Positions 3,419 to 16,749 of a stretch of 20,378 nt of DNA are shown here, piece after piece; the first letter of the stretch is position 1, and every line of letters begins with the position of its first letter. The DNA is taken from positions 1 through 20,378 of IMG/VR virus record IMGVR_UViG_3300037847_004508; one strand, 5' to 3'. The notes under the pieces are model-generated. The model made no database searches and was not told the DNA's origin. It saw only the letters and a list, made by a program, of their open reading frames with translations. The stretch comes from a virus. The position numbers and the translations under genes were made by a program.

Positions 3419-3858
3419 TACACTAGGTCTTGGAGATAGGGTTTTACATAATTAGGTCCTTTTGTGACCTTTCCATTCGCATCTTTGACAGGCTTGCCAT
3501 CTACAAGCTTGCTGATGTTGCTGCGATGAACACGGTCAAGTGCTTCGTCGAGTTGCCATCCAGCACATGCAGCAAACTGCCAGATCACATAGGAAAGATC
3601 TGCAAGCTCTTTGAGAGCGTGCTCTCTAGTTTCAAAATCACGGATGCGCATCATTCGTTCATAAGCTTCGGTAAACTCCATGAACTCTTCGATGATCAGA
3701 GCTTTTTGCAGATCGAGGTCTGACTTGGAAAAGGAACCGATGGGTTGATCCATTGCAACACGGAATTGCAATGCTTGGCCCAGAAAGTCAGGCGGTAGGG
3801 TTTTTGCGGAGGAGGTCAATTTTTTTGGAGAGGTATGCGCGGGCTTTGAGAAGGTCAT
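3418..3858 (-). CDS. MazG/HisE-like nucleotide pyrophosphohydrolase
   Basis: This is an all-helical MazG-superfamily protein. The metal-binding acidic signature is visible as E-E-F-M-E-F (IIEEFMEFTEAYE) and, about 30 residues later, KELADLSYVIW (ExxD). It ends with a short C-terminal arm, VDGKPVKDANGKVTKGPNY, typical of phage members that resemble phosphoribosyl-ATP pyrophosphohydrolases. Such enzymes cleave NTPs or dNTPs to monophosphates, and in cyanophages are thought to affect nucleotide pools or (p)ppGpp signalling. The start is uncertain. The ATG at 3858 overlaps DUF3310 by 71 bases, an internal ATG at 3753 would remove the conserved-looking FLGQALQF segment, and a non-ATG start between them (TTG before QFRVAM) is possible. 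The TAA at 3420-3418 overlaps the nrdA ATG. Confidence 0.8.
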   Translation of the reverse strand: MTFSKPAHTSPKKLTSSAKTLPPDFLGQALQFRVAMDQPIGSFSKSDLDLQKALIIEEFMEFTEAYERMMRIRDFETREHALKELADLSYVIWQFAACAGWQLDEALDRVHRSNISKLVDGKPVKDANGKVTKGPNYVKPYLQDLV

Positions 3859-4003
3859 CAATCGCATCTTCACCAGGCTTTCGCCCAGCGCGGCTGATGT
3901 ATTTGCAGACGTTGCCGAGGAAGTAATCAAGCTCAGCGTCTGCGATGTAGTCCCAGGTTTCTAGGACTCCAGTCTGGTAGTGCTTTGGTGAAAACTTAGT
4001 CAT
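3788..4003 (-). CDS. DUF3310-family small protein
   Basis: This 71-residue protein has the compact signature of the phage DUF3310 family: KHYQTGVLETWDYI, then LDYFLGNVCKYISRAGRK, then AIDDLLKARAYLSKKI. The family is common in phages, often near DNA metabolism genes, and its biochemical role is unsettled. The ATG at 4003 overlaps the stop region of the upstream 51-aa gene by 8 bases (ATGACTAA). The frame extends further upstream to 4105, but the upstream part is unlike the family and overlaps the 51-aa gene, so the later start is preferred. Confidence 0.75.
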   Translation of the reverse strand: MTKFSPKHYQTGVLETWDYIADAELDYFLGNVCKYISRAGRKPGEDAIDDLLKARAYLSKKIDLLRKNPTA

Positions 4004-4151
4004 CGTGCGGTTCGAGTTCGTCTTCAATTTTTTGCATGAAGCCATCCATCCAGTCTTCCCACAGTTGGACGGAGACTGGGGAGTGCTTGTAAGCGCGTAA
4101 TGCACGGAGGTTGTTCCTGATGAGGATCAACTCTTTAACAGTCAGCTTCAT
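3996..4151 (-). CDS. Hypothetical 51-aa protein
   Basis: The product starts MKLTVKELILIRNNLRALRA and ends KIEDELEPHDD. A basic amphipathic first helix is followed by a tryptophan-containing segment (VQLWEDWMDGFMQKI) and an acidic tail. I recognise no family. Its start overlaps the end of the NblA-like gene by 17 bases and its stop overlaps the DUF3310 start by 8 bases. This matches the dense tiling of the operon and makes it a credible gene. Confidence 0.65.
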   Translation of the reverse strand: MKLTVKELILIRNNLRALRAYKHSPVSVQLWEDWMDGFMQKIEDELEPHDD

Positions 4152-4329
4152 CCCAATGGCCGGTTTTAATAAGTTTCACCATGGTGTTTTGCAGTAGAAA
4201 AACTTGGCGTTGCAATGAGTCTGCAAGCAGACGTACATCCTCGATCTCTGCAATCTCAAGCGCATCTGAAAGCGTGCGCATTTTTAATTGCTGTTCGAGC
4301 GATAGCTCTAGGACTGGCTTAGGAATCAT
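4135..4329 (-). CDS. nblA: NblA-like phycobilisome degradation adaptor
   Basis: This 64-residue, two-helix protein contains LELSLEQQLKMRTLSDAL near the N-terminus, the same pattern as the ELSLEQxFxxR opening of cyanobacterial NblA. It continues with RLLADSLQRQVFLLQNTMVKLIKTGHW, matching the second NblA helix (LL..L.RQ....N....L.K..W). NblA tags phycobilisomes for proteolysis by the Clp protease. Cyanophages that carry it (Microcystis phage Ma-LMM01 and uncultured marine cyanophages) are thought to free amino acids and tune light harvesting during infection. The ATG at 4329 overlaps the exonuclease stop (ATGA). A longer frame to 4368 exists but would overlap the exonuclease by 43 bases and add a non-NblA extension. 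The assignment is by pattern only and needs a profile search. Confidence 0.72.
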   Translation of the reverse strand: MIPKPVLELSLEQQLKMRTLSDALEIAEIEDVRLLADSLQRQVFLLQNTMVKLIKTGHWDEADC

Positions 4330-5060
4330 GGTGTGAAAAGAATTGGTTGTTGGTTTGTTTCGTCCCAATCACTTGCCTGCAAGATGCGAGCAAGTCTTAG
4401 ATTGCGGAGTGCGTCTTCATGTGACAAACCAGCCTTCTCATACGCTTCGACGCAAGCAGGCCAGAACCCGTCTTGCGCTTTAGCAAGAATGGCCTGTGCT
4501 TTTTTCGGTCCGACGCCAGGGATTCCTTTGAATCCGTCAACTGAATCGCCTGTAAGGCACTGTGTGTAAAGCTGAAGCTCAGCATCCTCGGGTTCCACGG
4601 TGTACTCATCTTTGAGATCGAATTGACGGCAGGGGATCTGTTTGAGGTCCTTGTCTGGGCTAACCAGTACAAAGTTCGTGTCTTCGTCTTTGGTGCAGAT
4701 GATGCCTAGAACATCGTCAGCCTCGATGCCTGCAATGGTGAGTGATGGCCATGTTTCCATTGCCCATTTCTTGAGGCGCAGGTAGCCAGCAGGCTTACGT
4801 TTTTTACGGTTTGATTTGTAAGCCGGGTCGATGTCTTTGCGAAAGTTGTGGCGGTCAGTCCACGTCAGCAATACATCTTTTGAGTCAAACTTTTCTTGAA
4901 GGTTGGTGATCTCTTTGGTGAAGACCTTCTGGCCTTCAGAGAGATTGCCGATGATGACCGTCAGATCTTCATCTAGCTCCAGCTCCTCCTCGGCTGCTGC
5001 TGCACTTCTAAAGCAAAAGAAGTCAGCATCAATTCTGAGCTGGGGTGGTTTTAGTTTCAC
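4326..5060 (-). CDS. 5'-3' exonuclease, T7 gp6-like FEN family
   Basis: This 244-residue protein has the FEN/5'-nuclease layout. RIDADFFCF near residue 10 gives the first acidic site. YKSNRKKRKPAGY at about 80-92 is the basic helical-arch region of the YK.NR.....P.GY type. GIEADDVLG at about 111 and FVLVSPDKDLKQIP at about 130 carry the acidic metal ligands. The helix-3-turn-helix follows (GDSVDGFKGIPGVGPKKA, about 172-189). In T7 this enzyme degrades host DNA and removes RNA primers. The ATG at 5060 overlaps the end of the upstream nuclease-like gene by 32 bases, and the stop overlaps the NblA-like start. Confidence 0.93.
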   Translation of the reverse strand: MKLKPPQLRIDADFFCFRSAAAAEEELELDEDLTVIIGNLSEGQKVFTKEITNLQEKFDSKDVLLTWTDRHNFRKDIDPAYKSNRKKRKPAGYLRLKKWAMETWPSLTIAGIEADDVLGIICTKDEDTNFVLVSPDKDLKQIPCRQFDLKDEYTVEPEDAELQLYTQCLTGDSVDGFKGIPGVGPKKAQAILAKAQDGFWPACVEAYEKAGLSHEDALRNLRLARILQASDWDETNQQPILFTP

Positions 5061-5448
5061 GGTAGGTAAGCGGGTGATCAGCTTTGGCCCAAAAGTTCTT
5101 CAGTTCGGGTGGGAATCGATTACGAATCCACTGCACTCGCCATTGCGTGATGTCGCCGGTCGGAATGACCAGCACTGGAATCACACCCTTTGCAACTCGG
5201 TTGGTATTGCCATGCCAACCAGTACCAGAAGGTCGAGCCAGCTTCACGTCAATGGAGTACACCCCACCGTCAAGGGCCAGGATTATGTCGGTCTTACCTG
5301 TGCAGTTGAGGTTCTTGTAAACCTCTGCGCCTTTCCAAGCAGCTAGCAGGCAGACCCAGTGTTCAGCAATATCGCCTAAGCGACTTGGGCAAGCCTTAGT
5401 GGCAGTCTGCCCAGGTAGCTCCGATTTGAGCTTCTGCGTCAAGCTCAC
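5029..5448 (-). CDS. Putative PD-(D/E)XK-type nuclease between polymerase and exonuclease
   Basis: The conserved-looking core reads RLGDIAEHWVCLLAAWKGAEVY, then GKTDIILALDGGVYSIDVKLA. A helix containing GDIAEHW, then a Asp in a strand (KTDIIL), then a D-V-K strand (IDVKLA), is the arrangement of PD-(D/E)XK endonucleases, including resolvase-like and group I-intron-type proteins. I infer a DNA endonuclease, with moderate confidence. The start is unclear. The only in-frame ATG is at 5517, which would overlap the DNA polymerase gene by 122 bases. The GTG at 5448 gives a 53-base overlap and is used here; a TTG at 5442 is also possible. The C-terminus overlaps the exonuclease start by 32 bases. 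Confidence 0.65.
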   Translation of the reverse strand: MSLTQKLKSELPGQTATKACPSRLGDIAEHWVCLLAAWKGAEVYKNLNCTGKTDIILALDGGVYSIDVKLARPSGTGWHGNTNRVAKGVIPVLVIPTGDITQWRVQWIRNRFPPELKNFWAKADHPLTYRETKTTPAQN

Positions 5449-7159
5449 ATCTAAATTGGTAGAAATGTTCAACGTCTTTAATTGCTGCGGTAACGAGAAA
5501 CGCAGCACGTTCCGCATCTTCAGGCTTAACGCTTAACTGCATTTCATCATGGATAAATAACAACGGGTAGTAATCAATCCCAGCCTCTTGCAGTAATTCG
5601 TTCGCACGGATCACCCAAGATTTTGTGATGCAACTACCAGCCGACTGACATAGGTAGTTTGTGGCTGCGTACTTTTTGCCTTGCAGTCGAATAGGACGAC
5701 CGTCAAGACCTGTCAGTACATCAGACTCAGCTCGTTCAGCTAAAGCAGAAGTAAGAGCAGCGAATCCATCGAGGCCATCCATGATGGCTTTGCGGATACG
5801 TTTACCCTCTGCGGCTGCTTTATCTTTCGATGCCTTTGCAGTCAGGCCGATGCGATAATTCGATCCTCCATACAACATTGCGTATGTGACCGACTTCCCA
5901 ATCGAGCGAGAAGTCTTGTAGATCTCGCACAGCTTTGTATGGATGTCGCCTTCGACAACTTCCTTAGCAAAAGCTCGAGAATCGTACCTAGCTAAATAGT
6001 GGCCTAAGACCCGAAGCTCGAGCGATTTTGCATCAGCTCCGACCATAACTCTTCCCTCACCAGGACCGAACAATGCTCGGTATTCAGGTGCAGAATTTGT
6101 CTGGGCAAGGTTGGGACGCATGTGGATATTTCTCCCCGTGTTTGTATTAAGAACACAGGAGTGATGGATGCGCCCATCTGTGACGAGTTTGAGCCAGGCG
6201 TTCTGGCCCTCACTCAGTTGACCAAGAGCTTTTTGTAATTCAAGGATGCGTGCAAATTGCATCGCCTCCTCAGTGCCGATCTCGGTCAAAGTCTTTTCAT
6301 CGATCTTTGGTCTTCCCGTATCGGTCAGCTCATTAGGTTCCCACTGGCGGAATTGCTGGAAGGCCCAGGCAATGTGGGATCGACTCGTGGGATTGAACTC
6401 ACGTAGCCGACAGAAGGTGGCACCTTTGACGTACCCCTTTGTTTTGTTGTCTCGTGCAGGTGTGAACTCGCCACCATCCACGTCACGAAACGTGTTCTTC
6501 ATCGCATTTGCTTTCTGCTCCAGCTCCACCCGGAGAGTGCTCTCCAGCTTGTGTGCCTTCGCTGAGTCGAAAGGGATGCCTTTCTCCTCCTGCCACGCCA
6601 TTATTTTGGCGAGCTGCATTTCTGTGTAGATGGGCTTTTTGTACTGCTCAAGCTTGGGCTCGAACACACGGCACAGCTCAACGTTGGCAGCCACATCAGC
6701 CACGCAATAGTCGAGCATCTGTGGTGTGTACGTTGACCAGTCACCATCGAGTGACTTGCCGTACTCAGACTTGTGCTGGCCCAGACGGTGCCCCCATGAC
6801 TCCAGTGAATGTTTCCCGTACATGCTGGCTGGCATGGTCGGTGGCTTGGATCTGAAGTCACGTTGCAGCATGTCCTGAAAGAACAAGCGGCTTAGGATCA
6901 ACGTGTCAAAAATCTTGCCTTCTGGTTTGAAAAATGGGTAGATCTTTTTGATGACTGGGTAGTCAAAGTTGATCAGGTTGTGGCCCCATACCTCTTCAGC
7001 TACAGCAAGGATGTTGACGCCTGTCGTCAGTGATTCATGCTGGCCGGTGTCGTCATACTTAAAGACTTCACCAGTGTCCAGATCTTGCATGACGATGCAG
7101 TGGATGGTGTCAGCGTTGTGTCTGAAACCATTGCACTCGATGTCAGCGCAAACCCTCAT
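5396..7159 (-). CDS. DNA polymerase family A, T7 gp5-like, with 3'-5' exonuclease
   Basis: The protein has 587 residues. The exonuclease domain shows D6-I-E8 (motif I), HNLINFD66 (II) and YCVAD154 (III), all retained, so proofreading is likely. Polymerase motif A is VGAD376AKSLELR, motif B is RSIGK422SVTY426AMLYGG, and motif C is IHD538E539. Tyr426 corresponds to T7 Tyr526. The thumb segment around 230-260 (FTPARDNKTKGYVKG...FNPTSRSHI) is clearly shorter than the corresponding T7 thumb, which carries the thioredoxin-binding loop. The C-terminus ATWADCH resembles the T7 end NWAICH. The ATG at 7159 overlaps the thioredoxin stop (ATGA) and is better than the ATG at 7207, because MRVCADIEC matches T7 MIVSDIEA. 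Confidence 0.97.
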   Translation of the reverse strand: MRVCADIECNGFRHNADTIHCIVMQDLDTGEVFKYDDTGQHESLTTGVNILAVAEEVWGHNLINFDYPVIKKIYPFFKPEGKIFDTLILSRLFFQDMLQRDFRSKPPTMPASMYGKHSLESWGHRLGQHKSEYGKSLDGDWSTYTPQMLDYCVADVAANVELCRVFEPKLEQYKKPIYTEMQLAKIMAWQEEKGIPFDSAKAHKLESTLRVELEQKANAMKNTFRDVDGGEFTPARDNKTKGYVKGATFCRLREFNPTSRSHIAWAFQQFRQWEPNELTDTGRPKIDEKTLTEIGTEEAMQFARILELQKALGQLSEGQNAWLKLVTDGRIHHSCVLNTNTGRNIHMRPNLAQTNSAPEYRALFGPGEGRVMVGADAKSLELRVLGHYLARYDSRAFAKEVVEGDIHTKLCEIYKTSRSIGKSVTYAMLYGGSNYRIGLTAKASKDKAAAEGKRIRKAIMDGLDGFAALTSALAERAESDVLTGLDGRPIRLQGKKYAATNYLCQSAGSCITKSWVIRANELLQEAGIDYYPLLFIHDEMQLSVKPEDAERAAFLVTAAIKDVEHFYQFRCELDAEAQIGATWADCH

Positions 7160-7470
7160 CGACCTTTCTCCATGTTGTGAATAGCAGTAAGGGCGGCTTC
7201 CCACCATTCTTTTTGGACTGCTGTGATGCCTACACGGCGAGCCATCTCATCCACGTTCCGATCGAGAACCAGAACAGTGGGGTAGATCTTGAGGTTGTAA
7301 GAAGCAACCAACGCGCTGTGATTTTCTTTTTGCATGACAACAACGTGTTGCCGATACTCAGGGTGTTTCTCGAGAACTTCCTCGAGGTAGCCGTGCGCCT
7401 CTTTACAAGGCCCACATTGATCTTTTTTGAAAAAGATAAGTCGATGCGGTTTAGAAGTCTCCGTAGTCAT
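7156..7470 (-). CDS. Thioredoxin-like protein with CGPC active site
   Basis: This 104-residue thioredoxin-fold protein has the redox motif C19-G-P-C22 (FFKKDQCGPCKEA) and a probable cis-proline in LKIYPTVLVLD. No signal peptide is visible, so it is cytoplasmic. It lies immediately upstream of, and overlaps by four bases, the DNA polymerase gene; it overlaps the helicase end by 20 bases. Two roles are possible: electron donor for the phage class I RNR, whose C-terminal CASC needs such a partner, or processivity factor for the polymerase as host thioredoxin is for T7. The short thumb insertion in this polymerase makes the RNR role at least as likely. Confidence 0.88.
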   Translation of the reverse strand: MTTETSKPHRLIFFKKDQCGPCKEAHGYLEEVLEKHPEYRQHVVVMQKENHSALVASYNLKIYPTVLVLDRNVDEMARRVGITAVQKEWWEAALTAIHNMEKGR

Positions 7471-10662: not shown

Positions 10663-11529
10663 TCAGAGGTTCCTGATGGCATTACGGCAGACCTTTTCGT
10701 TTGCTTTGGTGTAGCGCAGCACAGAGGTCACGTCGCGGTGGCCTGTGAGCCTGGCAATGGTGGCTGGACTTTCCGACTCCGCAAGCCAAGTGGCGAACGT
10801 GTGCCGGAATGTGTGCCAGTTGTGGCGTGGACTGAATTCGCAGTAGTCGCGGAGTTTTTTGAAATGTTTGAGCAGTTGGTGTCTGTCGTCCCAGCAGTTG
10901 CCAAACAACAACGCCCGTGCGGTGTGCCCTTCTGATCGCCGTTGAAGGATCTCCTCAAGGCGTGGGGCCATTGGCACCCAGTAGCAGTTGCCTGCCTTGG
11001 TGGGGTTGTCAGGGCGACCACCAACACCGATTCGATTCATGTCCCAATCGATGTCACCAACTTGGGCACGCATCAGGTTTGCTTGACGCATCCCTGTGTA
11101 AGCAGCAAAGACGATGGCATCGCTCATGTCCTGCCACTCGAACATCTTGCGAGCGGTGAGTGATAGCTCTTCGACCTGATCCCGAGTGAAGTATTCGGGT
11201 TTGATCTCGGCTTCTTTCAAGTTGGGGAAGTCAGGGACTTCGATGTCATGCAGGCCAGCACGGCGAGTGCTGTTGATGACGGTCTTTGCCAAACACACCA
11301 CCCTGTTTGCGGTAGCGGGAGCCCACGTGGGGTGCTCATCTTGCAGTTCATTCCTGAACTCAATCCACCATGCAGCCTTCTTGAGTCGCGTTAGTGGAAG
11401 TGACTTGCCACAATAATTAGTGACGTGTTTGCAGTTGATCTGAAACGTCTTGGCTTGCGCCTGACGCCGAGCAACGTTCTTCCAATGCCAGTCGGATGCC
11501 TGGCCCCAGGTGCTAACTGAATCAGTCAT
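10663..11529 (-). CDS. int: Tyrosine-family site-specific integrase
   Basis: The 288-residue protein has an N-terminal SAM-like DNA-binding segment (about 10-100, including WAPATANRVVCLAK). The catalytic domain shows R148 (AYTGMRQANL), K178 (NPTKAG), H239-T-F-R242 (NWHTFRHTFATWLA), H264 (LTGHRD) and nucleophile Y273 (VLRYTK), so the R-K-H-R-H-Y set is complete. It would join attP to a host tRNA-Leu gene. The attP-like tRNA fragment lies directly downstream. Its ATG at 11529 overlaps the TGA of the MarR-like gene (ATGA), so the two are translationally coupled. Integrases occur in a subset of marine T7-like cyanophages, although stable lysogeny has been hard to show. Confidence 0.95.
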   Translation of the reverse strand: MTDSVSTWGQASDWHWKNVARRQAQAKTFQINCKHVTNYCGKSLPLTRLKKAAWWIEFRNELQDEHPTWAPATANRVVCLAKTVINSTRRAGLHDIEVPDFPNLKEAEIKPEYFTRDQVEELSLTARKMFEWQDMSDAIVFAAYTGMRQANLMRAQVGDIDWDMNRIGVGGRPDNPTKAGNCYWVPMAPRLEEILQRRSEGHTARALLFGNCWDDRHQLLKHFKKLRDYCEFSPRHNWHTFRHTFATWLAESESPATIARLTGHRDVTSVLRYTKANEKVCRNAIRNL

Positions 11530-16158: not shown

Positions 16159-16749
16159 TCAGACAGGGGAGAAGATGGCATAGGTGCAAGCGCCCTGATA
16201 GATGGAGAACCATCCATCGCAGCTAAAGACGCCATACCAAACCCGATCCCAATCGATGTATGAGACGAGGGAATCGGTCGGCATCTGTCCCGTCTGTTCG
16301 TAGAAGTCCTCGGCAAAATCAGCCTCTGATTCAAACGTGCCTTGGTAGGCGTCGTTGAACTCGTCAAAGCTCACGGCTTGCCCGATGTGGTCGCAGTACT
16401 CGCGGTAGGTGTCGCCTTCGTTGCCGTTGCCTTCACACTCCTGCCAAGTGGTGACCCATTCGGCCAAGGCCTCGAGGTCTGGATGCTCATCTCTGAGAAT
16501 CGCGGGGATCCCTTGGAAATCGTGGACGGCGTACTCCTCAGCGTTTGGAACCGGGGAGGTTTTCAGCACGTAGTCGATGCCGGCTTGTATGTCGCTGGCG
16601 TCAAGCCTCGGAACGTCTCCAAGGTTGAGCCAAGCGCCGTGCAAGTGGCCGCTGTTGTAGCTGGCGAGGCAAGCCACATAGATCGCAGGGCCGGAGGTGG
16701 CCTTGCTGCAAATGGTGGGCCGTTCAATGGTGGTTGCGGTAGTGGTCAT
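16159..16749 (-). CDS. ardA: ArdA-type antirestriction protein (DNA mimic)
   Basis: The 196-residue, strongly acidic protein has the ArdA opening IYVACLASYNSGHLHGAWLN (about 23-42). It then has SPVPNAEEYAVHDFQGIP (about 65-82) and an acidic C-terminal motif with DAYQGTFESEADFAEDFYEQ. ArdA forms an elongated dimer that mimics B-form DNA and blocks type I restriction-modification enzymes. In T7 the first early gene, 0.3 (Ocr), is an unrelated DNA mimic with the same job, so its place among the early genes fits. A TTGACA element lies just upstream. It could equally be a recent acquisition: ArdA is best known from plasmids and conjugative elements. Length is slightly above the usual 165-180. Confidence 0.87.
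   Translation of the reverse strand: MTTTATTIERPTICSKATSGPAIYVACLASYNSGHLHGAWLNLGDVPRLDASDIQAGIDYVLKTSPVPNAEEYAVHDFQGIPAILRDEHPDLEALAEWVTTWQECEGNGNEGDTYREYCDHIGQAVSFDEFNDAYQGTFESEADFAEDFYEQTGQMPTDSLVSYIDWDRVWYGVFSCDGWFSIYQGACTYAIFSPV

Follow-up and report, generated by a model that had tools for sequence, protein, structure and literature searches.

Does the short reading frame that follows the exonuclease gene in this viral DNA encode a phage NblA, and what would such a protein do for the phage? The window, that is, the whole stretch of DNA analysed here, is an IMG/VR virus record of 20,378 bases and represents a fragment. A first-pass annotation had placed a 64-aa NblA-like product at 4135-4329, with the strand left out. 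On the plus strand this segment is broken by many stops, and it is the minus strand that holds an intact 64-aa ORF, read from 4329 to 4135, with the product MIPKPVLELSLEQQLKMRTLSDALEIAEIEDVRLLADSLQRQVFLLQNTMVKLIKTGHWDEADC followed by its stop. The gene and its surroundings are as follows, all on the minus strand.

3788..4105 (-): DUF3310 protein, called 'nucleotide kinase' in relatives (PF11753, E 1.5e-12)
3996..4151 (-): Syn5 gp30 homologue, 51 aa (phrog_17835, E 1e-15; 57% identity to Syn5 gp30)
4135..4329 (-): nblA-like gene, 64 aa (ATG at 4329-4327, stop TAA at 4137-4135)
4326..5060 (-): T7-type 5'-3' exonuclease (PF02739, E 5.9e-14), upstream of nblA and joined to it by an ATGA overlap
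5396..7207 (-): DNA polymerase of the P60/Syn5/S-CBP42 clade (62.5% identity to S-CBP42)

The ATGA link to the exonuclease, also proposed in the first-pass annotation, is present: bases 4326-4329 read TCAT on the plus strand and ATGA on the minus strand, and the TGA stop of the exonuclease overlaps the ATG of nblA. Because of this overlap, translation of nblA is probably coupled to that of the DNA-replication genes. At its other end, nblA is overlapped by 17 bases by the start of the gp30 homologue, and the DUF3310 gene probably starts further in than listed, as its listed ORF overlaps its neighbour. Promoter and terminator scans around nblA gave signals no higher than those in shuffled sequences.

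First, the reality of the gene has to be considered. A frame overlapping the end of another gene could arise by chance, and the counterparts of this one, which in relatives match at the end of the exonuclease or immediately behind it, are often unannotated (e.g., in S-TIP37, S-SBP1, and S-RIP2). That the ORF is not a gene at all is nevertheless contradicted by comparison with three contigs (L008, L010, and L011) having about 96.4-96.9% DNA identity to the window (~3-3.5% divergence). Their nblA differs from that of the window at 11-12 bases, all of them synonymous, with 0 amino-acid changes, and the start overlap and the place are conserved as well; a chance ORF is thus almost out of the question. 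In the same comparison, the 245 codons of the exonuclease carry 17-20 synonymous differences, plus 6 that fall in changed codons. Since the differences among these near relatives are all synonymous, the NblA-like protein is under strong purifying selection. Per base, nblA has more synonymous differences (12 in 195) than the exonuclease (17-20 in 735), a pattern for which recombination is a possible explanation.

Second, what kind of phage carries the gene? Judged from its genes, the window is a fragment of a clade-A (P60/Syn5/S-CBP42-like) cyanopodovirus. The clade names follow polymerase and exonuclease likeness as computed in the present analysis: clade A is the set of S-CBP42, SS120-1, Syn5, S-TIP28, P60, and S-CBP2, and clade B comprises S-CBP4-type phages. 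The minus strand carries nearly all window genes, arranged in the order of T7, i.e., terminase, RNA polymerase, integrase, endonuclease I, helicase, thioredoxin, DNA polymerase, and exonuclease, followed by small genes, a MazG-like protein, ribonucleotide reductase, and portal. A podovirus replication block, as had been claimed, is indeed recognisable from the T7-type RNA polymerase, endonuclease I, DnaB-type helicase, DNA polymerase, exonuclease, and ribonucleotide reductase. The DNA polymerase is 59.7-61.2% identical to those of P60, S-CBP2, SS120-1, S-TIP28, and Syn5 and about 44% to that of S-CBP4, and the exonuclease is 54-60% identical to those of Syn5, P60, S-CBP42, and SS120-1. In Syn5, gp30 directly follows the exonuclease, so that the nblA of the window sits exactly between these two genes. 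Further photosynthesis genes may be encoded beyond the ends of the window, as it is a fragment. Elsewhere on the minus strand are a 196-aa protein of the anti-restriction family phrog_2059 (16159-16749, E 6.8e-20) and a tyrosine integrase (10663-11529, Pfam Phage_integrase, E 2e-18), which Syn5 and S-CBP42 have at the same place; no tRNA gene was found in the window alongside this integrase. Between polymerase and exonuclease lies a 162-aa protein (5029-5517, minus strand; phrog_23404, E 1.8e-33), at the place of which relatives have endonuclease-like genes.

Third, is the protein truly related to NblA? In a Pfam search, the family PF04485 (NblA) was the sole match of the window protein, with residues 8-55 aligned to positions 1-48 of the 50 in the profile, at E 0.0071 and 17.2 bits. 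The curated cut-off of PF04485 is 25 bits, which is an annotation threshold rather than a biological trait, so that the profile check fails narrowly on the window sequence alone, and a search of NCBIfam with the window protein returned no match. A small coiled-coil or helical-hairpin phage protein, unrelated to NblA and resembling it by chance, would account for such a score, and short helical proteins are prone to chance matches. Against this, NblA is the only match and it runs end to end, and the same check passes through the relatives: the seven clade-A homologues tested from the same slot, 34-53% identical to the window protein, all exceed the cut-off at 28.6-40.2 bits (L207, 40.2; L260, 38.0; L238, 35.6; L218, 35.0; L027, 33.4; L232, 31.2; L230, 28.6). 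In clade B, S-TIP37 is also over it (27.8 bits) and L048 falls just short (22.8 bits). All 51 aligned homologues match NblA, with a best E of 2.9e-10. The window protein itself matches phrog_27006, the NblA of cyanopodoviruses, at E 4.4e-7, and as a single sequence against the PDB it matches only NblA (E 0.24 and 0.8). With the profile of the 51 homologues, the NblA structures 3cs5, 1ojh, 2q8v, and 2qdo are matched at 2e-6 to 8e-4, and the next chain appears at 0.33; below E 0.3, NblA is the only family in the PDB search. Nine clade-A phage proteins aligned by hhalign with 17 cyanobacterial NblA sequences gave a probability of 97.6%, E 2.7e-12, and about 25% identity. PF04485 is also specific, since Synechococcus elongatus was its sole match among 14 control genomes. 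A resemblance by chance is therefore contradicted and very improbable. From the same-slot relatives over the cut-off, the PDB result at 2e-6, and the hhalign result, it is well supported that the window gene is a divergent NblA homologue, and the first-pass call of an NblA-like gene holds through relatives and profiles. It also follows that the Pfam cut-off alone undercounts phage NblA.

The anatomy of the protein agrees with this assignment. In the AlphaFold model of a single chain (mean pLDDT 87.5), helices are predicted at 11-24 and 29-55. In a control model of Anabaena-type NblA they lie at 9-23 and 27-55, an equal layout after an offset of two residues. The ELSLEQ...R opening and the RQ...N...L.K..W second helix that had been pointed out earlier are both found (ELSLEQ and R18; RQ, N48, L53, K55, and W59). 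In the alignment, L9, E12, Q13, R18, K55, and W59 are the commonest residues of cyanobacterial NblA at their positions, and E12 and Q13 are invariant across the aligned phages and cyanobacteria. Anabaena NblA has Leu51 and Lys53 at the positions aligned to L53 and K55, and its Trp is the counterpart of W59. Work by Bienert and colleagues in 2006 reportedly found Leu51 and Lys53 to be needed for phycobilisome binding. Two residues, T56 and G57, are inserted before the conserved W59 in the lineage of the window; they are absent from the other aligned phages, and cyanobacteria usually have one. A Foldseek search of the PDB with the window model retrieved no NblA, and a model of a true NblA used as control likewise retrieved none, so that the fold search was dropped as uninformative. 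A second look at the window model with VIA-align found nothing.

How widespread is the gene at this place? The window protein matches 26 phage records, all of cyanophages or uncultured marine phages, and dozens of cyanopodoviruses have homologues at the corresponding position. Clade-B cyanopodoviruses have them directly after the exonuclease. A survey of clade-A-type exonucleases covered 84 loci (79 from IMG/VR, some redundant, and 5 named phages), and an NblA homologue was directly downstream in 21, about a quarter; 61 were without it and 2 were too short. It is absent after the exonuclease in P60, Syn5, S-CBP42, S-CBP2, and SS120-1, and P60, S-CBP42, and S-CBP2 carry in that slot another small ORF, 78-80 codons long and membrane-bound in appearance. 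In S-RIP1 (L314, 2995-3111), the NblA homologue is split over two frames and the exonuclease is split too, through either decay or errors in sequencing. A tree of 70 sequences separates phage from cyanobacterial NblA with support of 100/99, and clade-B NblA forms a group with 98/97. The window NblA is the longest end branch and has no resolved place among the clade-A and other phage sequences in this tree, so that neither transfer from a host nor transfer from clade B is claimed.

What, then, would the protein do? In cyanobacteria, NblA is a ClpC adaptor delivering phycobilisome proteins for degradation (PMC7966870; PMC7760959), and its dimers form four-helix bundles (PMC7966870). Expression of freshwater and marine phage NblA in cyanobacteria resulted in phycobilin loss (PMC9602691), and it is from this published work that the role suggested in the first-pass annotation, dismantling of the host antenna with release of amino acids, is drawn. 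Very probably, the window gene encodes a phage NblA that brings phycobiliproteins to the ClpC protease of the host. Its helix-turn-helix hairpin would dimerise into a four-helix bundle with putative phycobiliprotein binding chiefly by the C-terminal end of the second helix. Through ClpC, the host Clp protease would then dismantle the phycobilisome in the replication phase, and the phage would benefit from free amino acids and lower light capture.

The host was also expected to have phycobilisomes, as the first-pass annotation reasoned. This is likely, but carriage of the gene is no strict proof of it, because a homologue is kept in the Prochlorococcus phage NATL1A-7 (L022, 3001-3186). To our knowledge, Prochlorococcus has no phycobilisomes. 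The same case, together with the long branch and the atypical C-terminus close to the antenna-binding part, would fit a homologue that has drifted from its task, still binding ClpC and either delivering other host proteins or blocking it, with the phycobilisomes spared. Such a drift seems unlikely, given that L53 and K55 are kept at the positions of the two Anabaena residues with the reported binding role and that near relatives encode an identical protein. A further conjecture, which we regard as doubtful, is that the post-exonuclease slot of clade A is an exchange site and that the two-residue insertion near the antenna-binding end has retuned this divergent NblA to another phycobiliprotein or to some other client of ClpC.

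Among auxiliary genes, phage NblA is one for which an effect on light harvesting by the host has been reported. According to PMC9602691, Nadel et al. (2019) predicted nblA in 14 cyanopodoviruses. Viral NblA in the ocean was the subject of Nadel et al. (2025; Nature, doi 10.1038/s41586-025-09656-x), as cited in a 2026 review (PMC12892361), which on this basis gives an estimated loss of as much as 5% of photosynthetic light capture worldwide. Because phage NblA, that of cyanopodoviruses included, was already published between 2019 and 2025, the window gene is a divergent addition to something known; it adds a divergent branch in P60/Syn5-type phages, of which the named isolates checked are without the gene.

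Among the known systems close to it, NblA-like clade-A ORFs from IMG/VR (L027, L207, L218, L238, and L260) share with the window the slot, the ATGA overlap with a clade-A exonuclease, an I-P-x-P start, and, where there is enough sequence (not in L027), a Syn5 gp30 homologue next to it. They are over the Pfam cut-off, whereas the window protein is under it. The clade-B NblA proteins (S-TIP37, S-SBP1, S-RIP2, S-CBP1/3/4, S-B28, and S-SRP01; phrog_27006) are 33-48% identical to it, with the size class, the EQ...K motif, the LQ.Q.F.L.N...N.V..W second helix, and the place just after the exonuclease in common. They differ in a longer N-terminal tail and a P-rich C-terminal tail, both of which the window protein lacks, and in the two extra residues that it has before the conserved W. 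Cyanobacterial NblA (PF04485; 1ojh, 3cs5, and 2q8v) is separated from the phage proteins by one well-supported branch. In common with the window protein it has the two-helix hairpin, the ELSLEQQ motif, and conserved residues towards the end of helix 2 (L/F, K, and W).
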